This document shows, piece by piece, positions 1 to 63,584 of a stretch of DNA of 64,000 bases. Where the stretch lies: NCBI GenBank assembly GCA_026874595.1, contig CM049317.1, positions 13,632,882 through 13,696,881 of the forward strand, written 5' to 3'. Position numbers and translations under genes: made by a program. The DNA is from Sipunculus nudus. Its lineage: Eukaryota; Annelida; Sipuncula; Golfingiida; Sipunculidae. Position 1 is the first letter of the stretch, and every line of letters begins with the position of its first letter. The notes under the pieces are model-generated. The model was given only the letters and a program-made list of their open reading frames with translations, did no database searches and was not told the origin of the DNA.

Positions 1-3000
1 AACTGCTGACTCCAGTCACATGTATCAGTGTGAAATATTCCACAAAGGTCTTGACTCAATAGAAAGTAATCTGCCATCGATCCATCAAAACCTTTTACAC
101 AGTTCTGTCATTCTCTCGCTCTCTGCTTGTATTTTGTATCACTGAAAACAAATACTTCTCGGTAAGTGCAATTCTGGCAGAAAACCTCTAAAACTGCAGA
201 CACCTACTGAATAAACAGCCACTTGTAGAAAGAACTGTTATAGCTGCCAGTATAACATACTAACTTGGTATGTGTGAACAAAATATAAAGATATACCATT
301 ATTCTTAAATTAGTTCAATGGCATCCGGCTTGCCGTTGCTCTTGTGTCCTTGGTTTTAACAGCTACTTAGTATAAAAGATTCTCTGGGTTCCATAACCAG
401 GGCTGGCACAGAGCAAAGACTTGTAATCACACAAATGGGAGGGTGGTATCAGTGTGCATCCAGCTCTAAATTTAAAACATGAGACACCCCTTCTCATTGG
501 TCTGATGTTTTGACCTGTGCCAGAACCAGTCACCCTATTCAATGCAATGAGCACCCTGTCCACTCTCAAACATTGAATTTTATCAAATATTTTTTGCACC
601 CCAAAAAAGCGCCCCCACCCCTGCAGTTCTAGGCTTAGATATGGCTTCTTTTGAGGTGAACATAAGTACTGCCAAAGTTTTCCTAGGTGACAATGACCTT
701 TCCTCAAAGATATCCCTCAAAAATCCAAGGGGGGGGGGGGGGTGCTCATTATGGTGGGGGCACTCATTACGTTAAATATGGTAATCAGATTTGTGTCAGA
801 TTAAGCAACATTTCGACTGCTTTATACCATGCTCTATGTGACACAGATGAGGCATCTGTGTTCGACTTTAAAGAAAAGTGAACACCACTGAGATGAGAAC
901 AGAACAGTGTTTATCAATTAAGCTTTATTCACCAAAACCTTAAATATCCAATTCCCATATAATTCCAATTCATTTCGTTTTATTTTTTTCAATTCAAAAG
1001 TTTCTAATTCACACAAGTCTCCCTTCAAATCCATTTCTAAATCAATTCAGAACTGACCCATGGTCTGGTCCTAAATCTCAACAACACATCTCCATAAAAC
1101 TGTGAATGTCTGCAACATCCCATTCACAGATTTAACTTAACAGGTAACTTCAACAATATTGAACCGCTGCTGTGCTATGGGTACGCTCATGTGGCAGCGG
1201 AAATCTTGCGCTTCTAAAGAAGCTACAGATTTTCACACTGCCTGCTTTGACCGTTTATGATGCACTTAAACACCAGGTGGTGCACATGGGCCTGTCTGAT
1301 GAAAAACTGCTGATGTGACGAGCAGCCAACCAAATGCAAGTCAACAAAAGCTCGACAGGCATCAGGCTTCGCCGAGAAACCACATGTGGGGCAATTCTCT
1401 CTGAGCCTGTGGCCTGTTCAAATGGTAGACAGGGCGATGAGCTGTCACTCAAAACAAAATGAACAACATTGGCTCCGTGTATTCCTCGCTTGGCTGGTAA
1501 ACCGTTTTGTCTTCAGGACAGGGTCTCATCTGATTGGACCAAAATACAGTGCTCCCCTCTGGTGTAGAGATTCAGGATACAAGGTCATAACAAACAGCGC
1601 TTATTATATAGGTAGTTGGCCTATGGGTTAAGTGCTGTGTAAAGAGCGTATGCTATAGGAAAAATATCTAATATTTGTACTGGACAACTGAGAGTGATCG
1701 AGAGTTCATTGATCTTGTATTATAAGAGTCTTATGACATTACTGTCATATATAAAAGAATATAAAAGGCCTTCAGATTCCCTACCTTTCCAATTTTAAGA
1801 AACATCTATCTTATATTTTTATGCACTCAACCAACTCTGCGCTAATTTTTCATGAATCAAAGGGTACATACATGAAGCGATTTAAAACACAAAAAGAAAA
1901 CGGTGAAACTGAACTTTTATGTTTTCTATCCATTTTCATATAAATTACAGAATATAAAGCAAGTCAAAGCAACAAACTACCAAAAAAGAAATTCTTCAAA
2001 AGTACTTTGTAACCAAGTGCGTTTTTTTTTTCTTGCTCTGACGAGAATCTAAAAGAACTTTTAAAAGGGGCAAGAACCGGTGTCAAGCAAAATTAAGTTG
2101 AACAACAGCACAAGGCAATACGCTTATAACAAGTAAAATATTAAAACTACTTATAAGCAGCAAAAATTTTAAACTGCCAAGATATAGGCTGGGTATTGGG
2201 CAGACGGCAGCTGTTTTCAAAAGAAGCGGCCAATCACTTGCTTTGATGTCAGCCACTTTTTGGGGTGTCATTTTGGCAGGAACCCTCCAGTGTCAAGAGT
2301 TGTGGTTTATGATAATGGCCATTATCACTTTTCATCCCTCCTCCTCCTCTTTCATGTTTTACAAAAGTCCCTGTCTGCAGGGACCATAAATATTAGTGTT
2401 TTTAAATGCTGAGAACAATAGTAAACAGACAATACAAATCTCGAGCAGCCAAAGCTGACTAAGGTTGCTTTTGTGTATCATTATAAAACAGGAATTGCAG
2501 GTTCAACCCAAAACCTGGATAAACCCTAAGTTTTACCTAAAACCATAGATTGGTAAAATAGGTGTTATTCAGGTATTACCCAAGATGATTGGGTTTTACC
2601 ACTTATTCCTACTGATTAAGAGAGATACGCTCTGCACAGCCCGACATAAGTTCGAGTGTGAGATGTAAATGGCTTCTTTAAAGGGACATAATCGTGAGCA
2701 ATATTATGCCTGTGCTTTCACACTATCAAAATCAGATTTGCTTAAAACAAAAGTTTCCCAGCAAAACCATCCCAGCACACAGTCTCAGTACCTCGCATAC
2801 GACTGTTTTAACCCCATGTTATGGCTCTGAGTGTTGGTAAACACAGTCCACGTGTGTCTGTTTTTCATAACAAGGCTGTGTGACTGGAGGTCCGACTGTG
2901 AGCCGCAACATGCGGGGTTTTAATCAGCGGGTACATGTATTATATTTTTGGGCAAAGTCAGTCAGGACATCTCCTGATTGACACGTATTGTGGCTCCACA

Positions 3001-27500: not shown

Positions 27501-30366
27501 GACAGGGCCAAATTTGGAACATATCTTGGAAACTTCAGCTTGCAAGTTTATGATAATCCATCACACAGGTGACACAGATATCTGTCAAATACAGTCCCAC
27601 AGGTGACAGAGATATCAGCCACATATTGTCACAGATACCTGGCAAATACTGTCACACAGGTGACACATATCTTTAATATACTGTCACAGGTGATATATCT
27701 GTTGCATACTGCCACACAGGTGACAGATGTCTTTCACATATTGTCACACAGATGACACAGATATCTTTCACAGTTCACACAGATCTATGTCTCTCACATA
27801 CTGCCTCACAGGTGACATGTACAGGTATCAGTCACACACTTTCACACAAATCACACAGATATCTGGCACATACTTTCACACAGGTGATAGAGATATCAGT
27901 AACAAATTACAGATATCGGCACATACTGTCACACAGATGACACTTGTCGTTAATTTACTGTCACATGTGATATATCTATCACATACTGACACACAGTTGT
28001 CACACATGTCTTTCACATATTGTCACACAGGTGACACAGATATCTCTCACATGTGGCCAAACAGGTGACATGTTTAGATATCAGTTGCATACTATCACAC
28101 AAATTACACACATATCTTTCAAATACTGTCACACAAATCACACAGATACCCTTCATATTCTGCCACACAGATGACACAGATATCTTTCACATACTGCCAC
28201 ACAGTTGACATGTATAGATATTGGTCACACGCTTTCGAGCAAATCACACACATATCTGGCACATACTGTCACTTTGGTGACACATATCTTTGATATACTG
28301 TCACAGGTGACATATCTGTCACATACTGCCACACAGCTGACAGATATCTTTCACATATTGTCACACAGGTGACACAGATATCTCTCACATACTGACACAC
28401 AGGTGACATGTTCAGATATCAGTCACACACTATCAAACAAATCACACAGACTTTTTTCCCATACTGTCACACAGGAGACGCAGATATCTTTCACAAACTG
28501 CAGATATCTCTCACATACTGACACACAGGTGACATGTTCAGATATCAGTCACACACTATCAAACAAATCACACAGACTTCTTTCCCATACTGTCGCACAG
28601 GTGATGGAGATATCAGTCACATGTCACAGATATCTGGCACATACTGTCACACAGGTGACACTTATCTTTATTTACTGTCACAGGTTACATTTCTATCACA
28701 TACTAACACACAGATGTTACATGTCTTTCACATATTGTCACACAGGTGACACAGATATCTCTCACATATGGCCAAACAGGTTACATGTTTAGATATCAGT
28801 CACATACTATCACACAAATTACACAGCTATCTTTCATATACTGTAATACAGGTGACATAGATATCTTACATACTGCCACGCAGGTGACATGTACAGATAT
28901 CATTCACAAATTTCACATCTGTCATGCAGCTGAAACATATCAATCTGTCACATACTGTTACAGGTGACGCATATTGCCACAAACTGTCTCAAAGATATCT
29001 GTTACATACTGTCACACAGGTGACACATATCTTTTAAATACTGCCACACAGTTGACACACATCAGGTACACACTATCACACAAATCACACATATCTAGCA
29101 TATATTGTCACACAGGTAACATATATCTGTCACATACTGCCACACAGGTGACACTGATATCAGTCGCGCACTTTCACACAAGTCATAGATATCTGGCACA
29201 TACTGTCAAAAAGGTGAGATATCTGTCACATACTGTCACAGGTGAAACCAATACTTGTCACAAACAGTCTCACAGATATTTGGTATATACAGTCACATAG
29301 GTGACAGAGATATCAGCCACATAATGTCACAGATCTATATCTGTCATGTACTGTTAAGCAGGTGACACATATCTGTCACATCATGTCACACAGGTGACAC
29401 AGATATCTCTTACATACTGCCACATGGATTGCACAGATATCTGTCACATACTCTCACACAGGTGACACATATCTTTCACATAGTGTCACAGGTAAAACAT
29501 ATGTCACATATTACCGCACAGGTGACACATATTTTTCATGTACTGCCACATAAATTGCACTGATATCTGGCACATACTGTCACACAGGTGACACATATCT
29601 GTCTCGAACCATCACGGGTGTCACAAATCTGTCACTAACTGCCACACAGGTGAGACAGATATCTCTCACATACTGTCACACAGGTTACACAGATATCAGT
29701 CATGTGGACTATATCACACAAACCATACAGATATCTGTCACATACTGTCACAGGTGACCCAAACTAACCACAAACTGTCTCACCAATATGTCACAGATAG
29801 TCACACAGTGACAGAGATATCAGCCACATACTGTCACACAGGTCACACACATATGTCACATATGTCACATACTGTCACAGGTGAAGTAGCTGTCACATAC
29901 TGTCAAATATATATCTGACACAAATATTATCACAAATTTTCACGAATATCTGTCACATACCGTCACACAGGTGACAAGAGATATCAGCCACATAATGTCA
30001 CAGCTGTTTTGCACAAACTATCACAAAGGTTACACATATATCTGCCACATACTGTCACACAGTTGACAGATATTTGTTTCATACTGCCACGCAAGTGACA
30101 CATATCTCTCACATATTGTCACACTGATGAAGCAGATATGTCATAATGATATACTTTCACAAAGGAGAGACAGATATCTATCACATACCATCACACAGTG
30201 ATCCATCAGATATTGTCAAACATGCCACACAGATACAGATATATCTGTCACATACTGTCACACAGGTTAAACATATGCCACATTCTTTCACACAATGTGA
30301 CTGACACACATGTCACACTTATCTGCCACATGCTGTCACGCATTTGACACAGAAATCTGTTACACA

Positions 30367-30569
30367 CTCAGGACTTTCAGAAACACTAGGGTAAGCGTAT
30401 CTGATGCTCGAAATCTCTTATGTAAGCTTGGTTCTGAGTGTCCGAGCATCCTTCCCATCATGCAAATTTCTGGCTTTGGCACCTTGTGGCAATAAGTGAC
30501 CATTACTGGGTGCCTCAATCAAACCCGTCAGGTTTGTAAACGCCACAATAATTTCTGAGGCTCACATTT
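30367..30569. repeat. Non-repeat block ending the first higher-order copy
   Basis: About 200 bp without the 34-bp period, containing AGGGTAAGCGTATCTGATGC. It recurs at 32950-33152, about 2,583 bp away, with scattered substitutions. It marks the border of the higher-order unit. No coding or RNA identity is recognised. Confidence 0.8.
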
Positions 30570-32949
30570 AGGGTTTAGATATCAGTCACACACTGTTTCA
30601 CAAATCATACAGACATCTTTCCCATACTGTCACACAGGAGACGCAGATATCATTCACATAGTGCCACACAGTTGACACATACAGATATTGGTCACACACT
30701 TTCACCCAAATCACACATATATCTGGCACATACTGTCACACAGGTGATGGAGATATCAGTCACATGTCACAGATATTTGGCACATACTGTCACACAGGTG
30801 ACGCTTATCTTTAATTTACTGTCACAGGTTACATTTCTATCACATACTGACAAAGATGTTACATGTCTTTCACATATTGTTACACACATGTGACACAGAT
30901 ATCTCTCACATATGGCTTAACAGGTCACATGTTTAGATATCAGTCGCGTACTATCACACAAATTACACCGCTATCTTTCATATACTGTAATACAGGTGAC
31001 ATAGATATCTCTCACATACTGCCACACAGGTGACATGTACAGATATCATTCACACATTCGCACAAATTTCACATCTGTCACGCAGCTGCCACATATCAAT
31101 CTGTCAAATACTGTTACAGGTGACACATATTGCCACAAACTGTCTCAAAGATATCTGTTACATACTGTCACACAGGTGACACATATCTTTTAAATACTGC
31201 CACACAGTTGACACACATCAGGTACACATTATCACACAAATCACACATATCTGGCATTTACTGTCACACAGGTAACATATATCTCTCACATACTGCCACA
31301 CAGATGACACCTATATCTTTCACATACTGTCACATCTTTCATATACTGTAATACAGGTGACATAGATATCTCTCACATACTGCCACACAGGTGACATGTT
31401 CAGATATCATTCACACATTCGCACAAATTTCACATCTGTCACGCAGCTGCCACATATCAATCTGTCAAATACTGTTACAGGTGACACATATTGCCACAAA
31501 CTGTCTCAAAGATATCTGTTACATACTGTCACACAGGTGACACATATCTTTTAAATACTGCCACACAGTTGACACACATCAGGTACACATTATCACACAA
31601 ATCACACATATCTGGCATTTACTGTCACACAGGTAACATATATCTCTCACATACTGCCACACAGATGACACCTATATCTTTCACATACTGTCACAAAGGT
31701 GACACAGATATCTTTTACCTACTGCCACACAGGTGACACTGATATCAGTCACACACTATCACACAAGTCATAGATATCTGGCACATACTGTCACATTGGT
31801 GACATATCTGACACATATTGTCACAGGTGAAACCAATACTAGTCACAAACAGTCTCACAGATATTTGGTATATACAGTCACAAAGGTGACAGAGATATCA
31901 GCCACATAATGTCACAGATCTATATCTGTCATGTACTGTTAAGCAGGTGACACATATCTGTCACATCATGTCACACAGGTGACACAGATATCTCTTACAT
32001 ACTGCCACATAGATTGCTCAGATATCTGTCACATACTCTCACACAGGTGACACATATCTGTCACATACTGTTACAGGTAAAACATATGTCACATACTACC
32101 GCACAGATGACACAGATATTTTTCATGTACTGCCACCTAAATTCCACTGATATCTGGCACATACTGTCACACAGGTGACACATCTGTCACATACCATCAC
32201 AGGTGTCACAAATCTGTCACTAACTGCCACACAGGTGAGACAGATATCTCTCACATACTGTCACACAGGGTACACAGATGTCTGTCATGTGCATTCTGTC
32301 ACACAAACCATACAGATATCTGTCACATACTGTCACAGGTGACACAAACTAACTACAAACTGTCTCACTGATATGTTACCTACAGTCACACAGTGACAGA
32401 GATATCAGCCACATACTGTCACACAGGTCACACACATATGTCACATATGTCACATACTGTCACAGGTGACATAGCTGTCACATACTGTCAAATATATATC
32501 TGACACAAATATTATCACAAACTGTCACGGATACCTGTCACTTACCGTCACACGGGTGACAGAGATATCAGCCACATAATGTCACAGATGTCTTGCACAT
32601 ACTCACACAAAGGTTACACATATATCTGCCACATACTGTCACACAGTTGACAGATATTTGTCTCATACTGCCACGCAAGTGACACATATCTCTCACATAT
32701 TGTCACACTGATGAAGCAGATATGTCATAATGATATACTTTCACAAAGGAGAGACAGATATCTATCACATACCATCACACAGTGATCCATCAGATATTGT
32801 CAAACATGCCACACAGATACAGATATATCTGTCACATACTGTCACACAGGTTAAATATATGCCACATTCTTTCACACATTGTGACTGTCACACATGTCAC
32901 ACTTATCTGCCACATGCTGTCACGCATTTGACACAGAAATCTGTTACAC

Positions 32950-34089: not shown

Positions 34090-36826
34090 TGGTCAAGCGC
34101 TGTCCATAATTGAGATGCTTCCACTTGTCAGATCTTGTCAATAAAAGAATGAAGTACTTGTCATATCTTATCCATAATAGAAAGTAGTACTTGTCATATC
34201 ATGTCCATAATAGAATGAAGTACTTGTCAGATCTTGTCCATAAAAGAATGAAGTACTTGTCATATCTTATCAATAATAGAAAGTAGTACTTGTCATATCA
34301 TGTCCATAATAGAATGAAGTACTTGTCAGATCTTGTCCATAAAAGAATGAGGTACTTGTCAGGCCTTGTCCATAATTGAATGAAGTACTTGTCAGATCTT
34401 GTCCATAATAGAATGAAGTATACATGTCAGATCTTGTTTATAAAAGGGAGAAGAATATGTGCCAGATCTTGTCTGTAATAGGATGAAATACCTGTCAGAT
34501 CTTGTACATAATAAAGAAAGTTCACTCTTCAGATCCTGTCCAAAATAAAGTAGGTATACTATCAGATCTTATCTGTAATAAAATGAAAAACTTGTCAGAT
34601 CTTTTCCATGATAGAGAAAATACACTTTTCTGATCTTGTCCATATTAGCAAGAAGTACATTTTTCAGGTCGTGTCCATAAAAGGGAGAAGTACACATGTT
34701 GAATCTTGTCCATAAAAGGCAGGGAGAAGTGAGCATGTCAGATCTTGTACATAAAAGGCAGGGAGAAGTACAAATGTCAAATAATGCCCATAACAGAGTG
34801 TGTACAATCATCAGATCTAATCAGTTATAGAATGAAGTACTTTTCAGATCTTGTGCATGATAGAAGATATTGTGCATAATAGAATGTAGAACTTGTCAGA
34901 TCTTGTCCATAATAAATGGCAGGGAGAAGTACACATGTCAAATCTTGTCCATAAAAGGCAGAGAGAAGTACACATGTCAAATTTGGTCCATAATAGAGTG
35001 TGTTCAATCATTAGATCTTATCCAGAATAGAGAGAGGTACACTTGTCAGACCTTGTCCATAAAAGGTAGGGAGAAGTAAACTTCAGATCTTGACCATAAT
35101 AGAGAATGTTTAATCCTCAGATCTCATCCATAATATAGAGGGTACATTTTTAAGATCTTGTCCATGAAAGGGAGAAGAACACATGTCAGATCTTGTCAGT
35201 AAAAGGCAGGGAGAAAAACTCATGTCAGATCTTGCAATAAAAGGCAGGGAGAATTTCACATGAGATTTTGACCATAAAAGAGAGAGTTAAGTCTTTGGGT
35301 CTTATCTGTATTAGAGAGAAGTACACTTGTCAAATCTTGTCCATAAAAGCCAGGGAGAAGTACACATCAGATCTTGTCCATAATAAAGAGTGGTCAATCC
35401 TCAGATGTCCTCTATAATAGAGAGAAGTGTACTGGTCAGATCTTGTCCATCAAAGGGAGAAGTATACATGTCAGATTTTGTCTATATAATAGAATGAAAA
35501 ACTGGTCAGATCTTGTTCATAAAATCCAGGAAGAAGTACACATGTCCAATCTTTTCCATAATACAGAGTGTTCAATCCTCAGATCTCATCCATAAGAGAG
35601 AGAAGTATCCTTGTCAGATCTTCTTCATTAAAATTTTAAGTACATATGTAAAATCTTGTCCATAAAAGGCAGGAAGAAGTACAAATGTCAGATCTTGTCC
35701 ATAAAAGGTAGGGAGAAGTTAACTTTAGATCTTGTCCATAATAGAGTGTTCAATCCTTAGACCTCATCCATTATAGAGAGAAATACACTTGTCAGAAAAG
35801 GGGGAAGTATACATGTCAAACTCAGTCCATTAAAGGCAGGGAGAAGCAGGCATGTCAAATTTTTTTCATAAAAGGCAGGGAGAAGTACACATCAGATCTT
35901 TTCCATAAAAGGTAGGGAGAAGTACACATCAGATCTTGTCCATAAAAGGTAGGCAGAATTTCACATCAGATCTTGTCAATAAAAGGTAGGAAGAAGTACA
36001 CATCAGATCTATTTTGTCCATGAAAGGGAAAGGTATACAAGTAAGATTTTGCCTATAATAGAATGAAAAACTTGTCAGATCTTCTCCATGATAGAGAAAA
36101 TACACTCTTTAGATCTTGTCCATAAAAGGAAGAAGTATACATGTCAGATATTATCTATTATATAATGAAATATTTTTCAGATCTTCTCCATAATAGAGAA
36201 ATTACACTCTTCAGATCCTGTCCATAATAGCAGGAAGTACACGTCAGATCTTGTCCATAAAAGGGAAAAAGAAAACATGTCAAATGTTGTCTATAAAAAA
36301 AATGAAAAACTTGTCAGATTTTGTCCGTAATAGAGAATGTTCAATCCACAGATCTCACCCTTAATAGAGAAAAGTACACATGTCAGATTTTGTCTTTAAA
36401 TGGTAGGGGGAAGTACACATGTCAGATCATGTCCATAATAGTGTTCAGTCCTCAGATCTCATCCATAAAAGAAAGAAGTACACTTGCCAGGTCTTATCTG
36501 TAAAAGGGAGAATTATCTATGTCAGATTCTGTCCTTAAAGTGAGAAGTACAAATGTCAGATCTTGTCCATAAAAGGTGGGGGGAAGAACACGTCAGGTCT
36601 CGTCCATGAAAAGTAGGGAGAAGTACACATCAGATCTTGTCCATAAAAGAGAGTGTTTGATCCTCAGATCTCATCCATAATAGAGGGAAATATAAATGTC
36701 AGATCTTGTCTGAAATATAATGAAATACATGTCAGATCTTCTCCATAATAAAGTTCACTCACTCTCTAGATCTTGTCCAAAATAGAAAATGTACAACCGT
36801 AAGATCTTGTCTGTTATAGATGGGAG
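34090..36826. repeat. About 39-bp degenerate minisatellite, DARS1 intron 1
   Basis: Units follow ATGTCAGATCTTGTCCATAA then AAGGCAGGGAGAAGTACAC, in two flavours: AATAGAATGAAGTACTTG near the left end and AAAGGCAGGGAGAAG in the middle. Divergence between units is high, and insertions or losses of a few bases are common, so the array is older than the one in intron 3. A weak internal subperiod of two units occurs where TTCAATCCTCAGATCTCATC alternates. Confidence 0.9.
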
Positions 36827-45249: not shown

Positions 45250-45789
45250 AGCTAACCATTGTCCCTGGTAATGATATAGAGCTAACCATAGTCCCTGGTA
45301 ATGATATAGAGCTGACCATGGTCCCTGGTAATGATACAGAGCTGACCATAGTCCTGGTAATGATACAGAGCTGACCATAATCCTGGTAATGATATAGAAC
45401 TTACCATAGTCCCTGGTAATGATACAGAGCTGACCATAGTCCCTGGTAATGATATAGAGCTAATAATAGTCCCTGCTGATGATATAGAGCTAACCATAGT
45501 CCCTGGTAATGATATTGAGCTAACCATATTCCCTGGTAATGATATAGAGCTAACCATATTCCCTGGTAATGATATAGAGCTAACTATAGTCCCTGGTAAT
45601 GATATAGAGCTAACCATAGTCCATGCTGATGATATAGAGCTGACCATGGTCCCTGGTAATGATATAGAGCTAACCATAGTCCCTGGTAATGATATAGAGC
45701 TAACCATAGTCCCTGCTGATGATATAGAGCTAACCATAGTCCCTGGTAATGATATAGAGCTAACCATAGTCCCTGCTGATGATATAAGA
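45250..45789. repeat. 30-bp minisatellite, left part
   Basis: The unit is CCATAGTCCCTGGTAATGAT followed by ATAGAGCTAA, exactly 30 bp, in about 18 copies; a CTGCTGAT variant replaces CTGGTAAT in some. On the minus strand the ten-codon unit reads TMVSSISLPG without stops, which produces spurious long frames. The array is interrupted at 45790 by a LINE and resumes at 47253. Confidence 0.95.
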
Positions 45790-47252: not shown

Positions 47253-47646
47253 TTAGAGCTAACCATAGTCCCTGGTAATGATATAGAGCTAATCATAGTC
47301 CCTGGAAATGATATAGAGCTAACCATAGTCCCTGGTAATGATATAGAGCTAACCATAGTCCCTGGTAATGATATAGAGCTAACCATAGTCCCTGGTAATG
47401 ATATAGAGCTAACCATAGTCCCTGCTGATGATATAGAGCTAACCATAGTCCCTGGTAATGATATAGAGCTAACCATAGTCCCTGCTGATGATATAGAGCT
47501 AACCATAGTCCCTGGTAATGATATAGAGCTAACCATAGTCCCTGGTAATGATATAGAGCTAACCATAGTACCTGGTAATGATATAGAGCTGACCATAGTC
47601 CCTGCTGATGATATAGAGCTAACCATAGTCCCTGGTAATGATATAA
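47253..47646. repeat. 30-bp minisatellite, right part
   Basis: About 13 further units of the same 30-bp repeat, in the same phase as the left part, on the far side of the LINE. The identical unit on both sides shows that the array existed before the insertion. Confidence 0.95.
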
Positions 47647-54755: not shown

Positions 54756-55212
54756 TTGACATCTTCTACATGTTACATTTGACCATTGTAATACTACCAG
54801 CTTGAGACAATAAGACAACAACAACATCATTCATCCATACTTGCTGTGTGACAATCATAAGAACTAGGAATTTCAAACATGGCAGCTTCTGACAGGAAAA
54901 GTAAAATTAGGTCATTGAGACCTACATTATCTGAATTATCAGACAACAATACAGGTTTGCAGTCATCAGAAAAGTTCAGTGGATAAATCTAATAAAGCCC
55001 TAGATTTTCAGTGAAGTCTGCATTGAATGTGATGAAATTGGGTATGCTTTATTGTTAGTCCTCAAGAGTTTTAAACTGCTGCACAAGACATGTGACACCA
55101 TAATAATTTTAAATGTTTATTATAAATGATAAATATTTTTTTTGCAGCAGGGTGCACTCTGTAAACATGGTTTAGTCTGTGTTACTTTAATATTTTTGGG
55201 TATTTTTTGCAG
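54756..55212. other. 3' end of DARS1 intron 2
   Basis: It contains two acceptor-like TTTTTTGCAG sites, ending at 55147 and 55212. Only the second gives the right frame for exon 3. Confidence 0.65.
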
Positions 55213-55390
55213 CAACAAGATGCGGCAGCACCAGAAGATGACTATGCAAAAGATTGCTATGGTGACATGCCCCTCATCCAGTCCCACAATCCTCCTGACA
55301 GGAAGCTGGAGAAAATCAAAGACCTGACAGGAGAAAATGCTGGCCGATCAGTGTGGATCAGGGCGAGAGTGCACACCAGTAGGAGCAAAG
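55213..55390 (+). CDS. DARS1: DARS1 coding exon 3, start of the anticodon-binding OB fold
   Basis: The acceptor is TATTTTTTGCAG and the donor is AAAG|GTAGGT. The exon encodes residues 48-106 and the first base of Gly107. It includes EDDYAKDCYG (residues 55-64), a family-typical linker, and VWIRARVHTSRSKG (residues 94-107), the first strand of the OB fold that reads the tRNA-Asp anticodon. An upstream TTTTTTTTGCAG ending at 55147 is a competing acceptor, but it would put the exon in the wrong frame. The last 36 bases of this exon are the first unit of the 42-bp minisatellite that fills the following intron, which is very unusual. Reading through the donor meets TAG at 55396-55398, so intron retention would stop translation two codons beyond the exon. 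Confidence 0.95.
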
Positions 55391-58300
55391 GTAGGTAGAT
55401 CTGGGCCAGGGTGCACACCAGTAGGAGCATAGGTAGATAGATCAGAATCAGGGTGTACACCAGTAGGAGTAACGGTAGACAGATCTGGGCCAGGGTGCAC
55501 ACCAGTGGGAGTAAAGGTAGGTGGATCAGGGCCAGGGTGCACCCCAGTAGGGTAAAGGTAGGTGGATCAGGGCCAGGGTGCACACCAGTAGGATTGAAGG
55601 TAATTGGACCAGGGCCAGGGTGCACACCAGTAGGAGTAAAGGTAGGTAGATCTGGGCCAGGGTGCACACCAGTGGGAGTAAAGGAAGATGGATCAGGGCC
55701 AAGGTGCACACCAGTAGGAGTAAAGGTAGGTAGATCTGGGCCAAGGTGCACACCAGTAGGAGTAATTGTAGGTGGATCAGGTCCAGGGTGCACATCAGGA
55801 GTAATGGTAGCTGGATCAGGGATAGGATGCACATTAGTAGGAGTAATGGTAGGTGGATCAGGTCCACGGTACATACCAGTAGGACTAAATATAGGTGGAT
55901 CAGGGCCAGAGGGCACACCAGTAAAAGTAAAAGTAGGTGGATCAGGGCTATGGTAACACCAGTAGGAGCAATGGTAGGTGGATCAGATCAAAGGTACACA
56001 CAAGTTAAAGTAAAAGTAGGTGGATCAGGGTCAGAGTACACACAAGTAGGTGTAATGGTAGGTGGATCAGGTCCAGTGTACACACCAGTAAAAGTAGGTG
56101 GATTAGGGCCAGAGGGCACACCAATAGGTGTAATGGTAGGTGGATCAGGTCCAGGGTACACACCAGTAAAAGTAAAAGTAGGTGGATCAGGTCCAGGGTA
56201 CACACCAGTAGGTGTAATGGTAGGTGGATCAGGTCCAGGGTACACACAAGTAAAAGTAGGTGGATCAGGGTCAGGGTACACACAAGTAAAAGTAAAAGTA
56301 GGTGGGTCGGGGTACACACCAGTAGGTGTAATGGTAGGTTGATCAGGGCCAGGGTACACACCAGTAAAAGTAAAAGTAGGTGGATCAGGTCCAGGGTACA
56401 CACAAGTAAAAGTAAAAGTAGGTGGATCAGGGTCAGGGTACACACCAGTAGGTGTAATGGTAGGTGGATCAGGGCCAGGGTACACACCAGTAAAAGTAAA
56501 AGTAGGTGGATCTGGGTCAGGGTACACACAAGTAAAAGTAAAAGTAGGTGGATCAGGGTCAGGGTACACACCAGTAGGTGTAATGGTAGGTTGATCAGGG
56601 CCAGGGTACACACCAGTAAAAGTAAAAGTAGGTGGATCAGGTCCAGGGTACACAACAGTAAAAGTAAAAGTAGGTGGATCAGGTCCAGGGTACACACCAG
56701 TAAAAGTAAAAGTAGGTGGATCAGGGTCAGGGTACACACCAGTAGGTGTAATGGTAGGTGGATCAGATCAAGGGTACACACAAGTAAAAGTAAAAGAAGG
56801 TGGATCAGGTCCAGGGTACACACCAGTAAAAGTAAAAGTAGGTGGATCAGGGTCAGGGTACACACCAGTAGGTGTAATGGTAGGTAAATCAGGGCCAGGG
56901 TACACACCAGTAAAAGTAAAAGTAGGTGGATCAGGGTCAGGGTACACACCAGTAGGTGTAATGGTAGGTGAATCAGGGTCAGGGTACACACCAGTAAAAG
57001 TAAAAGTAGGTGGATCAGGGTCAGGGTACACACCAGTAGGTGTAATGGTAGGTGAATCAGATCAAGGGTACACACAAGTAAAAGTAAAAGTAGGTGGATC
57101 AGGGTCAGGGTACACACCAGTAGGTGTAATGGTAGGTGAATCAGGGCCAGGGTGCACACAAGTAAAAGTAAAAGTAGGTGGATCAGGTCCAGGGTACACA
57201 CCAGTAGGTGTAATTGTAGGTGAATCAGATCAAGGGTACACACAAGTAAAAGTAAAAGTAGGTGGATCAGGTCCAGGGTACACACCAGTAGGTGTAATGG
57301 TAGGTGAATCAGGGCCAGGGTGCACACAAGTAAAAGTAAAAGTAGGTGGATCAGGTCCAGGGTACACACCAGTAAAAGTAAAAGTAGGTGGATCAGGTCC
57401 AGGGTACACACCAGTAGGTGTTATGATAGGTGGATCAGGTCCAGGGTACACACCAGTAAAAGTAAAAGTAGGTGGATCAGGTCCAGGGTACACACCAGTA
57501 GGTGTTATGATAGGTGAATCAGATCAAGGGTACACACAAGTAAAAGTAAAAGTAGGTGGATCAGGTCCAGGGTACACACCAGTAAAAGTAAAAGTAGGTG
57601 GATCAGGTCCAGGGTACACACCAGTAGGTGTAATGGTAGGTGAATCAGGGCCAGGGTGGACACCAGTAAAAGTAAAAGTAGGTGGATCAGGTCCAGGGTA
57701 CACACCAGTAAAAGTAAAAGTAGGTGGATCAGGTCCAGGGTACACACCAGTAGGTGTTATGATAGTTGGATCAGGTCCAGGGTACACACCAGTAAAAGTA
57801 AAAGTAGGTGGATCAGGTCCAGGGTACACACCAGTAAAAGTAAAAGTAGGTGGATCAGGTCCAGGGTACACACCAGTAGGTGTAATGGTAGGTGAATCAG
57901 GGCCAGGGTGGACACCAGTAAAAGTAAAAGTAGGTGGATCAGGTCCAGGGTACACACCAGTAAAAGTAAAAGTAGGTGGATCAGGTCCAGGGTACACACC
58001 AGTAAAAGTAAAAGTAGGTGGATCAGGGTCAGGGTACACACCAGTAGGTGTAATGGTAGGTGAATCAGGGCCAGGGTGCACACCAGTAAAAGTAAAAGTA
58101 GGTGGATCAGGGTCAGGGTACACACCAGTAAAAGTAAAAGTAGGTGGATCTGGGTCATGGTACACACCAGTAGGTGTAATGGTAGGTGAATCAGGGCCAG
58201 GGTACACACCAGTAAAAGTAAAAGTAGGTGGATTAGGGCCAGAGGGCACACCAGTAGGTGTAATGGTAGGTGGATCAGATCAAGGGTACACACACAAGTA

Positions 58301-61300
58301 AAATTAAAAGTAGGTGGATTAGGGCCAGAGGGCACACCAATAGGTGTAATGGTAGGTGAATCAGGGCCAGGGTGCACACCAGTAAAAGTAAAAGTAGGTG
58401 GATCAGGGTCAGGGTACACACCAGTAAAAGTAAAAGTAGGTGGATCAGGGTCAGGGTACACACCAGTAGGTGTAATGGTAGGTGAATCAGGGCCAGGGTG
58501 CACACCAGTAAAAGTAAAAGTAGGTGGATCAGGGTCAGGGTACACACCAGTAGGTGTAATGGTAGGTGAATCAGGGTCAGGGTACACACCAGTAAAAGTA
58601 AAAGTAGGTGGATCAGGGTCAGGGTACACACCAGTAGGAGTAAAGGTAGGTAGATCTGGGCCAGGGTGCACACCAGTGGGAGTAAAGGAAGGTGGATCAG
58701 GGCCAAGGTGCACACCAGTAGGAGTAAAGGTAGGTAGATCTGGGCCAAGGTGCACACCAGTAGGAGTAATTGTAGGTGGATCAGGTCCAGGGTGCACATC
58801 AGGAGTAATGGTAGCTGGATCAGGGATAGGATGCACATCAGTAGGAGTAATGGTAGGTGGATCAGGTCCACGGTACATACCAGTAGGACTAAATATAGGT
58901 GGATCAGGGCCAGAGGGCACACCAGTAAAAGTAAAAGTAGGTGGATCAGGGCTATGGTAACACCAGTAGGAGCAATGGTAGGTGGATCAGATCAAAGGTA
59001 CACACAAGTTAAAGTAAAAGTAGGTGGATCAGGGTCAGAGTACACACAAGTAGGTGTAATGGTAGGTGGATCAGGTCCAGTGTACACACCAGTAAAAGTA
59101 GGTGGATTAGGGCCAGAGGGCACACCAATAGGTGTAATGGTAGGTGGATCAGGTCCAGGGTACACACCAGTAAAAGTAAAAGTAGGTGGATCAGGTCCAG
59201 GGTACACACCAGTAGGTGTAATGGTAGGTGGATCAGGTCCAGGGTACACACAAGTAAAAGTAGGTGGATCAGGGTCAGGGTACACACAAGTAAAAGTAAA
59301 AGTAGGTGGGTCAGGGTACACACCAGTAGGTGTAATGGTAGGTTGATCAGGGCCAGGGTACACACCAGTAAAAGTAAAAGTAGGTGGATCAGGTCCAGGG
59401 TACACACAAGTAAAAGTAAAAGTAGGTGGATCAGGGTCAGGGAACACACCAGTAGGTGTAATGGTAGGTGGATCAGGGCCAGGGTACACACCAGTAAAAG
59501 TAAAAGTAGGTGGATCTGGGTCAGGGTACACACAAGTAAAAGTAAAAGTAGGTGGATCAGGGTCAGGGTACACACCAGTAGGTGTAATGGTAGGTTGATC
59601 AGGGCCAGGGTACACACCAGTAAAAGTAAAAGTAGGTGGATCAGGTCCAGGGTACACAACAGTAAAAGTAAAAGTAGGTGGATCAGGTCCAGGGTACACA
59701 CCAGTAAAAGTAAAAGTAGGTGGATCAGGGTCAGGGTACACACCAGTAGGTGTAATGGTAGGTGGATCAGATCAAGGGTACACACAAGTAAAAATAAAAG
59801 AAGGTGGATCAGGTCCAGGGTACACACCAGTAAAAGTAAAAGTAGGTGGATCAGGGTCAGGGTACACACCAGTAGGTGTAATGGTAGGTAAATCAGGGCC
59901 AGGGTACACACCAGTAAAAGTAAAAGTAGGTGGATCAGGGTCAGGGTACACACCAGTAGGTGTAATGGTAGGTGAATCAGGGTCAGGGTACACACCAGTA
60001 AAAGTAAAAGTAGGTGGATCAGGGTCAGGGTACACACCAGTAGGTGTAATGGTAGGTGAATCAGATCAAGGGTACACACAAGTAAAAGTAAAAGTAGGTG
60101 GATCAGGGTCAGGGTACACACCAGTAGGTGTAATGGTAGGTGAATCAGGGCCAGGGTGCACACAAGTAAAAGTAAAAGTAGGTGGATCAGGTCCAGGGTA
60201 CACACCAGTAGGTGTAATTGTAGGTGAATCAGATCAAGGGTACACACAAGTAAAAGTAAAAGTAGGTGGATCAGGTCCAGGGTACACACCAGTAGGTGTA
60301 ATGGTAGGTGAATCAGGGCCAGGGTGCACACAAGTAAAAGTAAAAGTAGGTGGATCAGGTCCAGGGTACACACCAGTAAAAGTAAAAGTAGGTGGATCAG
60401 GTCCAGGGTACACACCAGTAGGTGTTATGATAGGTGGATCAGGTCCAGGGTACACACCAGTAAAAGTAAAAGTAGGTGGATCAGGTCCAGGGTACACACC
60501 AGTAGGTGTTATGATAGGTGAATCAGATCAAGGGTACACACAAGTAAAAGTAAAAGTAGGTGGATCAGGTCCAGGGTACACACCAGTAAAAGTAAAAGTA
60601 GGTGGATCAGGTCCAGGGTACACACCAGTAGGTGTAATGGTAGGTGAATCAGGGCCAGGGTGGACACCAGTAAAAGTAAAAGTAGGTGGATCAGGTCCAG
60701 GGTACACACCAGTAAAAGTAAAAGTAGGTGGATCAGGTCCAGGGTACACACCAGTAGGTGTTATGATAGTTGGATCAGGTCCAGGGTACACACCAGTAAA
60801 AGTAAAAGTAGGTGGATCAGGTCCAGGGTACACACCAGTAAAAGTAAAAGTAGGTGGATCAGGTCCAGGGTACACACCAGTAGGTGTAATGGTAGGTGAA
60901 TCAGGGCCAGGGTGGACACCAGTAAAAGTAAAAGTAGGTGGATCAGGTCCAGGGTACACACCAGTAAAATTAAAAGTAGGTGGATCAGGTCCAGGGTACA
61001 CACCAGTAGGTGTTATGATAGTTTGATCAGGTCCAGGGTACACACCAGTAAAAGTAAAAGTAGGTGGATCAGGTCCAGGGTACACACCAGTAAAAGTAAA
61101 AGTAGGTGGATCAGGGTCAGGGTACACACCAGTAGGTGTAATGGTAGGTGAATCAGGGCCAGGGTGCACACCAGTAAAAGTAAAAGTAGGTGGATCAGGG
61201 TCAGGGTACACACCAGTAAAAGTAAAAGTAGGTGGATCTGGGTCATGGTACACACCAGTAGGTGTAATGGTAGGTGAATCAGGGCCAGGGTACACACCAG

Positions 61301-62310
61301 TAAAAGTAAAAGTAGGTGGATTAGGGCCAGAGGGCACACCAGTAGGTGTAATGGTAGGTGGATCAGATCAAGGGTACACACACAAGTAAAATTAAAAGTA
61401 GGTGGATTAGGGCCAGAGGGCACACCAATAGGTGTAATGGTAGGTGAATCAGGGCCAGGGTGCACACCAGTAAAAGTAAAAGTAGGTGGATCAGGGTCAG
61501 GGTACACACCAGTAAAAGTAAAAGTAGGTGGATCAGGGTCAGGGTACACACCAGTAGGTGTAATGGTAGGTGAATCAGGGCCAGGGTGCACACCAGTAAA
61601 AGTAAAAGTAGGTGGATCAGGGTCAGGGTACACACCAGTAGGTGTAATGGTAGGTGGATCAGGTCCAGGGTACACACAAGTAAAAGTAAAAATAAGGGAT
61701 CAGGGCCAGGGTGAATGCCAGTTAAAGTAAAAGTAGGTGGATCAGGGTCAGGGTACACACCAGTAGGTGTAATGGTAGGTCGATCAGGGCCAGGGTACAT
61801 ACCAGTAGGACTTAATATAGGTGGATCAGGGCCAGAGGGCACACCAGTAGGAGCAATGGTAGGTGGATCAGGTCCAGGGTACACACAAGTAAAAGTAAAA
61901 GTAGGTGGATCTGGGCCAGGGTACACACCAGTAAAAGTAAAAGTAGATGGACCAGGGGCAGGGTGCACACCAGTAGGGGTTATGGTAGGTGGCTCAGGGC
62001 CAGGTTGCATACCAGTAAAAGAAAAAGTAGCTAGATCAGGGCCAGGATGCACATCAGTAAGGGTAATGGTAGGTGGATCAGGGCCAGGGTATATACCAGT
62101 AGGAGTAAATGTAGGTGGATCAGGGCCAGAGGACACAACAGTAGGAGTTATGGTAGGTGGATCAGGACCAGGATGCACACCAGTAGGAGTAAAGCCAGGG
62201 TGTATACTAGTAAAAGTAAAAATAAGGGATCAGGGCCAGGGTGCATGCCAGTTAAAGTAAAAGTAGGTGGATCAGGGCCATGGTGTACATGAGAAGAAAC
62301 AAAGGTAGAG
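55355..62310 (+). repeat. 42-bp minisatellite (about 160 units) derived from DARS1 exon 3 and its splice donor
   Basis: The unit is GGATCAGGGCCAGGGTGCAC followed by ACCAGTAGGAGTAAAGGTAGGT or variants. The first unit lies in the exon: 55355-55390 matches 55397-55432 at 31 of 36 positions, at exactly 42 bp spacing. Two later variants dominate: one ends CCAGTAAAAGTAAAAGTAG, the other CCAGTAGGTGTAATGGTAG. They alternate irregularly, and a few units are shortened. The exon-like type (ACCAGTAGGAGTAAAGGTAG) is kept at both ends and at the junction of a large internal duplication (58.6-58.9 kb). Because 42 is a multiple of three and the unit lacks stops, reading frames of 65 to 516 codons appear on both strands. 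Seen in the plus frame of the exon they read WIRSRVHTSKSKSR. I regard all of them as artefacts. Confidence 0.97.
55600..61650 (+). repeat. Tandem duplication of about 3.0 kb inside the 42-bp array
   Basis: Sequence from about 55.6 to 58.6 kb recurs 3,004 bp downstream. The 468-codon minus-strand frames at 56005-57411 and 59009-60415 differ at only three residues. In the downstream copy the offset grows to 3,088 bp by 61363, a gain of two 42-bp units. A six-unit (252-bp) internal copy is also visible at 60660-60899 and 60912-61151. The near identity means a recent event or an assembly effect. Confidence 0.9.
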
Positions 62311-62664
62311 TCTTTGTAGGATTAGTAAACTAAAATCATAGTTGTAGGTAATATCTTTATTTCATACATGTGTATCTTTTGCATACAAATTTCTCCTGTT
62401 GTCATTTTAAATATAAATGGTGTCACAAAGAATTAAGTGCTGCTGACTGTCAGTGTTAGTGGCCTGGTAACAGGATTCATCTTTCAGGGTAGGGTTTCAG
62501 ATGTGGCCAGGAAGTCTTGCTTTGAATGTTGGTTCTTGCTGCAATAGGGTGGTGACCATAAGCACTTCCACTGTACTATGAAGATTGATCAACTGCTTTA
62601 GTTACATAACATGTACCTGTCTTTGTTAAAAGATAAGATGGGATATATAGAAAGTATGTACGAG
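62311..62664. other. DARS1 intron 3 between the minisatellite and the foldback element
   Basis: No structure is recognised. Confidence 0.55.
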
Positions 62665-63350
62665 TATATATATGTCAAGGTAGAGATTGTGATTTGGTAT
62701 AATCGGAGTTTCTACCATTAGAAACTACGATCAGAGTCTCTGCTGGTAGAAACCACGATTGGAGTTTCTACAGGTAGAAACTCCTATCCTACTAGTAGAG
62801 ATTTCGATCATGGTTTCTACCAGTAGGAACTCTGATCCTGCTGGTAGGAACTTCAATTCTACTGATACTATACTGGTAGAGACTCCAATCACAGTTCCTA
62901 CCTGAAGAAACTGCAATGCTACTGGTAGGAACTTCAATTCTACGGATGGGCCAACCAGTAGAAACTGCGATCCTACCAGGCTAGTAGAATCTGTGATCTT
63001 ACTGGTAGGAACTTCAATTAATGATAATAAGCCAACCAGTAGAAACTGCGATCCTACTGTTAGGAACTTCAGTTCTATAGATAGGAACTCCATTGGAGCA
63101 AATCCCAAAATAAGTTTCTGTGGTTGTTTAATAATATTATATGTTTATTTAAATATTAAATATGTGAATTTTCTTTTAAAAAAAAAAGAATTTTCTTTTT
63201 TAAAGAAACCACAATCGGAATCTCTACCAGTGGGATCAGAGTTTCTACTGGTCTGATCATGGTTTCTACCAGCAGAGACTCCGATTGTAGTTTCCCCCAG
63301 TAGAAACTCCGATTCTACCAGATCGCAAACTCTACCCTGACATATATATA
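62665..63350. mobile_element. Foldback element, 686 bp, about 95-bp inverted ends and internal palindromic repeats
   Basis: The left end, TATATATATGTCAAGGTAGA, matches the reverse complement of the right end, TATATATATGTCAGGGTAGA. The match continues imperfectly for about 95 bp through AATCGGAGTTTCTAC and GTCTCTGCTGGTAGAAACCA. Inside, GTTTCTACCAGTAGAAAC-like units of about 24-30 bp repeat in both orientations around an AT-rich centre (about 63120-63210). No transposase is present. It sits in DARS1 intron 3, 131 bp before exon 4. Confidence 0.8.
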
Positions 63351-63481
63351 TGTAATATCTTTTCTTGGCAAGTACTTTGCAGTTGTGATCTATAAAAAAT
63401 GAACATGTTCCTTGAATGTAGGTTTATTTACTAATAATGATGACCAGGTCAGACTAAATATGATATGTTCTTTTTTTGAAG

Positions 63482-63584
63482 GAAAGCAATGTTTCTTGGT
63501 GTTGCGGCAACAACAATACACACTACAGAGTCTGTTGTTTGTCACTGATAAGATCAGTAAACCAATGGTACGCTTTGTAGCAGA
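63482..63584 (+). CDS. DARS1: DARS1 coding exon 4, OB-fold strand KQCFLVLRQQQ
   Basis: The acceptor is TTCTTTTTTTGAAG and the donor is GCAGA|GTAAGT. The exon enters in phase 1, completing Gly107, and encodes residues 107-140. KQCFLVLRQQQ (108-118) is the conserved OB-fold strand of AspRS; the sequence continues YTLQSLLFV and ISKPMVRFVA, matching the spacing of the family. Two bases (GA) of the next codon remain, so the following exon must enter in phase 2. That exon is not found in the last 416 bases of the window. Confidence 0.95.

Follow-up and report, generated by a model that had tools for sequence, protein, structure and literature searches.

A 42-bp minisatellite spanning the border of exon 3 and intron 3 in Sipunculus nudus DARS1, and the recurrence of such arrays at other exon ends of the genome

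The window analysed here is a 64,000-nucleotide stretch of the genome of Sipunculus nudus (GenBank assembly GCA_026874595.1, contig CM049317.1, positions 13,632,882 to 13,696,881, forward strand), which contains exons of DARS1, the aspartyl-tRNA synthetase (AspRS) gene. Intron 3 of this gene carries a long 42-bp tandem array, which is very probably a boundary-spanning (mirage-type) minisatellite grown from the end of exon 3 together with its own splice donor. The kind to which a single array of this sort belongs is known; what is new is the recurrence across exon ends of the same genome, for which a rough per-exon rate is given below. The features of the locus are as follows (window positions; a slash within a motif marks the exon-intron border; TRF, Tandem Repeats Finder):

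55213..55390, plus strand: DARS1 coding exon, here numbered exon 3, matching human AspRS together with exon 4; acceptor cag at 55210-55212, donor AAAG/GTAGGT.
55353..55390, plus strand: 3' end of exon 3, the source copy, i.e. the exonic part of repeat unit 1 (from the TRF start and the identity at +42).
55391..55396, plus strand: native 5' splice site GTAGGT, read from the sequence.
55391..63481, plus strand: intron 3, 8,091 bp; its acceptor ttttttgaag (63472-63481) is not a repeat copy.
55391..62305, plus strand: 42-bp array of 166 copies that fills about 85% of intron 3 (TRF and unit walk; last remnants judged by eye).
55513, 55554, 55638 and 55722 (55513..55731), plus strand: four early copies with the native donor context AAAGGTAGGT (motif scan).
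55610..57966, plus strand: source of a recent internal duplication, with the second copy from 58614, +3,004 bp (about 72 units) away, and 8 mismatches.
63482..63583, plus strand: DARS1 exon 4 (GKQCFLVLRQQQ...), contiguous with exon 3 in human AspRS; 3' bound approximate.

An earlier note on this DNA had placed the start of the period inside exon 3 near 55355 and estimated about 160 copies, and both statements agree with the present measurements. TRF reported a 42-bp period over 55353-62193 (163.9 copies, 81% matches) with an extra row at 62194-62285, and a unit walk counted the 166 copies beyond the exon copy, the step being exactly 42 bp in 150 of 166 cases. The periodicity sets in about 36 bases within exon 3 and the repeat unit crosses the exon-intron border. 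Identity at an offset of 42, in 42-base windows, is 0.17-0.31 across most of the exon and exceeds 0.8 at its end, and the last 36 exon bases are identical to the sequence 42 bases downstream at 31 of 36 positions, the same value as in the note when recomputed. The array units are approximately 80% alike to the exon 3 unit. In a genome search with bases 55390-55900, all 20 of the 20 matches listed (best candidates scored) fell inside the array. Intron 3 continues for about 1.2 kb after the array before reaching its acceptor.

The four early units with unchanged donor context (the note had pointed out several) are accompanied by two further unchanged AAAGGTAGGT copies at 58642 and 58726. These are the 55638 and 55722 copies moved by the +3,004-bp internal duplication, the two copies of which are about 99.7% alike over 55610-57966; the likeness is ragged beyond 58000, with 22 mismatches in 2,441 if it is extended to 58050. 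The duplication shows large-step expansion and recent growth of the array. It is a visible trace of unequal exchange, as proposed in the note; the border-spanning unit, likewise described there, is also supported.

DARS1 exon 3 is the likely source of the array. Joined exons 3 and 4 encode a peptide that matches human cytosolic AspRS (4j15, E 2.2e-27) ungapped across the splice junction, and the exon 3 peptide VWIRARVHTSRSKG aligns gap-free to human VWVRARVHTSRAKG. At unit positions 11, 14 and 32, at least 90% of the 42-bp copies depart from the exon, and all three differences are synonymous third-codon changes in exon 3 (GCG/GCC, AGA/AGG and AGC/AGT; codon reading by hand). A fourth difference, at unit position 17 (GTG/GTA in the consensus), occurs in 72% of copies; the array consensus and the exon unit differ at 7 positions altogether. 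Three exonic positions drawn at random would all fall on third codon positions with a probability of about 0.03 (a hand count, post hoc). Because the exon is conserved AspRS coding sequence and the array-wide differences are silent, copying probably proceeded from exon to intron, in line with the identification of the exon as AspRS and likely source in the note. Silent array-wide differences are expected if the exon has since drifted under coding selection and the array retains an earlier state, although three changes are few and the test was post hoc.

From this arrangement we infer a plausible order of events. A segment of about 42 bp, made up of the terminal ~36-38 bases of exon 3 plus a few bases at the start of intron 3, would have been duplicated in tandem. 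With the exon-proximal donor retained, splicing at that site would leave the mRNA unchanged, and the new copy would become intronic and escape negative selection. Intronic copies would then be multiplied by further unequal exchange or slippage, while the first copy would be held fixed by coding selection. Duplications across a border would be retained because splicing at the first donor conceals the additional copies.

The donor copies were inspected with regard to this scheme. Between the native donor and 62310 there are 188 GTAGGT motifs, the native one included. Scoring relied on an approximate human donor table, with which 989 GTs of the intron downstream of the native site were scanned: none scored above the native donor, and 6 array copies tied with it (decoy donors at 55517, 55558, 55642, 55726, 58646 and 58730). 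By the same table, the donor context is weaker than the native one in 160 of 166 copies, the commonest contexts being AAA/GTAGGT (79 copies) and ATG/GTAGGT (49), each short of one U1-pairing base. Donor positions are kept at 0.87 as against 0.79 for the remaining unit positions, which is a slight difference. Splicing at any of the six decoys would yield a stop 61 codons past the exon 3 start, within the first intronic copy, and nonsense-mediated decay is a likely backstop against decoy use. The array layout is consistent with splicing at the first donor alone, and the array itself is presumably neutral. Selection for donor weakening was considered and rejected as an explanation of the lost U1-pairing base in each main unit class, as 7 consensus-exon differences could easily produce it by chance.

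Border arrays are not peculiar to DARS1, and other exon ends in the genome behave likewise. The 1.43-Gb genome (17 contigs of 61-111 Mb making up ~1,397 of 1,427 Mb by hand sum) was scanned for three strong donors in tandem and the matches were grouped into arrays; the matches listed span contig 1 to the start of contig 2 (AGGTRAGT scan) and contig 1 to part of contig 5 (CAGGTAAGT scan). The 5' edges were fetched for all 24 arrays among the matches listed (13 from the first scan and 11 new ones from the second). Seven of these 24 start in a frame with protein homology (E <0.01):

L006: alpha-catenin-like (PDB 0.0072; Pfam vinculin only 0.12).
L007: aromatic decarboxylase-like (Pfam 3.5e-9).
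L011: PH domain (PDB SKAP55 8.3e-4; Pfam 0.023).
L107: ABC transporter (Pfam 3.1e-6, slightly below the curated cut-off).
L109: hydroxyacyl-CoA dehydrogenase (Pfam 1.5e-5).
L114: XPD helicase (PDB 3.6e-7).
L117: thioredoxin domain (Pfam 8.3e-11).

Another 9/24 (L002, L003, L004, L005, L009, L013 with L026, L108, L115 and L116) have, as judged by eye, an open frame into the first donor without significant homology, and no exon was discerned in the remaining 8/24 (L001, L008, L010, L012 and L110-L113). Pfam gave no significant match for the exon-like frames of L002, L003, L004, L005, L009, L012, L026, L108, L114, L115 and L116. A PDB search up to E 1 found nothing for L115, L009 and L013/L026; the only hits of the L116 frame were to DNA-PKcs, with E at least 0.61. 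From the edges of four control arrays among the matches listed for the reversed motif, 7 open reading frames were selected and none had a Pfam match, too few to weigh much. Since the 24 arrays were picked by donor motif, they cannot show a donor preference; donor-motif enrichment was seen at the level of matches only. Two of the loci have further peculiarities. In L007 (G000:C1:80740100-80741060, ~463-579), the exon's own 3' end and donor appear, by eye, to be copied (units of ~32-38 bp) into both flanking introns. In L006 (G000:C1:76747750-76748700, minus strand), the 58-bp units of the alpha-catenin-like exon end hold an acceptor-like tttacag as well as a donor, each unit resembling a 30-bp micro-exon plus its own intron.

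A survey starting from exons was performed on 100 exon-centred regions, namely 88 of 138 protein-kinase rows (partial, exon-like, chosen by eye) and 12 of 26 aminoacyl-tRNA synthetase rows; the synthetase rows left aside belonged either to DARS1 itself (3) or to small contigs (11, including 9 that are plainly bacterial AspRS). The regions were handled in batches of 60 (67,272 bp) and 40 (45,810 bp), five pairs overlap and several regions belong to the same gene. With a TRF score of at least 200, a cut set after viewing the list (a cut of 100 returned the same arrays), 11 strong arrays were found. Border-spanning arrays occurred in 4/100 regions (95% interval 1.1-9.9%):

L123: 65-bp unit, donor border, kinase exon ...APEVLRSEPYSTK/gtagat (Pfam kinase 1.4e-20).
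L164: 49-bp unit, 2.4 copies, donor border, ...CGTPEYLAPE/gtaagg, in the exon adjoining the fetched one (Pfam kinase 1.7e-11).
L193: 89-bp unit, 2.4 copies, donor border, ...MCLVLEM/gtgagt (Pfam kinase 6.5e-16).
L171 (G000:C4:81946489-81947604), 121-323, minus strand: 45-bp unit, acceptor border (Pfam kinase 2.9e-15).

In L171 the intron end and the first ~21 bases of the kinase exon are repeated upstream of the exon. The array of L118 begins a few bases past the donor and excludes the exon, and in L199 (G000:C4:47782834-47783979, minus strand, 759-1143) the 43-bp unit with TTTACAGGTGGTGCC possibly forms an array of the acceptor type belonging to the next exon. If the 11 arrays are placed at random in their regions, the prediction is 6.3 border-spanning cases against the 4 observed (P 0.12), and 878 exonic bases covered against 122 observed (P 0.00006; exon bounds approximate). 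An exonic-base cut of 80 had first been chosen post hoc; with seven cuts (20-150 bases) the test gave P 0.0002-0.014, and it was also run without a cut. The survey fits removal of arrays from exons combined with tolerance across borders, and border targeting is not needed.

Several other explanations of the DARS1 array were weighed. It is unlikely that the array is now functional, its many weak donors regulating DARS1 splicing or expression, e.g. through exon 4 skipping that depends on array length or a diversion of some transcripts to a stop. The 188 GTAGGT copies and the stop that the six native-strength decoys would produce speak for such a role, as does human ABCA7, in which longer arrays of a like kind are associated with more exon-19 skipping and lower expression (PMC5954066); nevertheless, 160 of 166 copies are weaker than the native donor by the approximate table and the donor positions are retained only slightly better than the rest of the unit. 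We regard as quite unlikely a birth process targeted to 5' splice sites (e.g. by R-loops, U1 binding or breaks), which would make border arrays over-represented. Genome-wide, three tandem AGGTRAGT gave 2,175 matches versus 1,438 for the reversed pattern, and three CAGGTAAGT gave 402 versus 159 for the control; however, these are counts of matches, many per long array, and the first 7.6 Mb of contig 1 hold 2 donor and 4 control arrays among the matches listed. Moreover, the border arrays of the exon survey do not exceed the number expected from random placement, and L171, one of the four, spans an acceptor.

An assembly artefact, affecting the whole array or just the internal 3-kb duplication, is very unlikely: assemblies are prone to errors in array length and the duplication copies are nearly identical, but they differ at 8 sites, the array is shorter than 7 kb and it lies on a chromosome-sized contig (C12, 78.6 Mb). 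That a pre-existing array overwrote the exon end by gene conversion or exonisation seems extremely improbable. The ~80% likeness of units and exon speaks for it; against it stand the gap-free alignment of the exon peptide to the human protein and the silence of the array-wide differences in the exon.

Some results weigh against growth from the exon end as proposed here, or against the wider picture drawn from it. Mean unit-to-exon identity stays level from one end of the array to the other (33.5-35.6 of 42 in nine bins), and because there is no similarity gradient, outward stepwise growth is not visible. The silent-site test was unsupportive at 12 other loci (for 3 of them the retrieved sequence held no copies). 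When these loci are taken together with DARS1, third positions account for 12/32 fixed differences, about the chance level, with many of the others at the outer margin of the sequence copied. The exon survey is a small one with a post hoc score cut, and the exon avoidance is partly a matter of ascertainment, the regions having been found by intact kinase or synthetase domain matches, which exons broken by arrays may escape.

Tentatively, and with slightly less than even confidence, we propose that border-spanning duplication is a major and continuing route of intron growth in this genome, with several per cent of exons (thousands of genes) carrying arrays of their own ends. If so, such arrays would be widespread because a duplication that keeps the outermost splice site is invisible in the mRNA; exon borders would be the sole coding part tolerating the birth of tandem repeats, and each array would archive former silent sites of its exon. 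Splice-neutral borders would also explain how introns grow from coding sequence without harm to the gene, and why the variable number tandem repeats (VNTRs) of human CBS and ABCA7 sit on donors. They predict arrays that are rare in exons and tolerated across borders, with the outermost splice site kept, and the small survey is compatible with this. With many natural cases that range from 2 to 166 units, such a genome would offer a ready series for measuring the spliceosome's choice among similar donors.

Other repeats were noticed in the window. Two arrays of one 30-bp unit (AGCTAACCATAGTCCCTGGTAATGATATAG), located at 45250-45786 and 47254-47645 and 1.5 kb apart, both sit between a K/E/A-rich exon near 41.6 kb and exon 3. 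Long degenerate minisatellite clusters occupy 27610-32878 (32-34 bp units) and 34123-36811 (33-39 bp), upstream of the DARS1 exons seen, and some of their units contain donor-like CACAGGTGAC or AAAAGGTAGG. By eye, and with no homology search made, no exon was seen at the left edges of the arrays at 27610, 34123, 45250, 47254 and 14475. In intron 3 past the array (62700-63330), imperfect palindromic repeats were noted by eye around AGTAGAAACTCCGATC. Outside the window, small contigs of the assembly carry intact intron-free genes with near-equal scores, for AspRS (C61, C62, C72, C74, C75, C77, C82, C83 and C89) and for COX1 (C60, C61, C62, C66, C72, C74, C75 and C89), a pattern that looks as if several strains of a bacterial associate were present in the assembly. 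The C74 AspRS reaches at best 54% identity, in its best segment, to the genomes returned by one scan. In the same assembly no match was obtained to the GFP family, which had none in 14 control genomes either, or to molluscan haemocyanin, and no mitochondrial genome was recognised among the COX1 matches.

The earlier note knew of no described case of a synthetase exon end behind so large an array. As a statement on arrays of this kind it is not supported: border-spanning arrays have been reported in amphioxus (PMC3087553, PMC3902484), human CBS (PMC2630376) and human ABCA7 (PMC5954066). No report of such an array in a synthetase gene was met, with no search aimed at synthetase genes made, and a literature search that most subscription papers lay beyond found no paper giving a per-exon rate of border arrays. 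Intron gain of the Rogers type (PMC4974935, PMC2891723) resembles the DARS1 case in a duplication that includes a splice signal. In that type a new intron takes both of its ends from the duplicated sequence, and it was rejected for DARS1, in which the acceptor (63472-63481) lies outside the array and there is no new intron.

The "mirages" of amphioxus are tandem duplications of exon-intron borders in Adh3, the globin genes Gb6 and Gb9, TnC and PGBD5 (PMC3087553, PMC3902484), for which RT-PCR suggested regular splicing (PMC3087553) and somatic instability was reported (PMC3087553, PMC3902484). Like the DARS1 array, they span borders and have AG/GT signals in many units, and they affect both 5' and 3' borders, both types likewise being found in the present genome. 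They differ in dimensions, with units of 10-72 bp (Adh3) or 150-160 bp in 3-6 copies (Gb6) versus 42 bp in 166 copies in DARS1; in addition, amphioxus is a cephalochordate, and a rough per-exon rate is given here for the present genome. In DARS1 the repeat unit spans the border with the gene's own exon as the terminal unit, and the units carry copies of the splice signal, though only 6/166 equal the native donor context. The human CBS 31-bp VNTR, c.1444_1467+7(16_21), by its name combines 24 bases of exon with 7 of intron and is present in 16-21 copies (PMC2630376); its unit also straddles the exon end, while it is far shorter than the DARS1 array and is known to be polymorphic. The VNTR in intron 18 of human ABCA7 has a 25-bp unit including the exon-18 donor, with alleles of 298-10,678 bp (~12-427 units), retention of single units and a length that goes with exon-19 skipping (PMC5954066). 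As in DARS1, the unit includes the donor of the preceding exon and each unit is a potential donor, but the ABCA7 unit is described as starting at the donor GT, whereas that of DARS1 has ~36 exonic bases, and effects on splicing were measured for ABCA7. Judged by these comparisons, the DARS1 array is a large new example of an already described kind.

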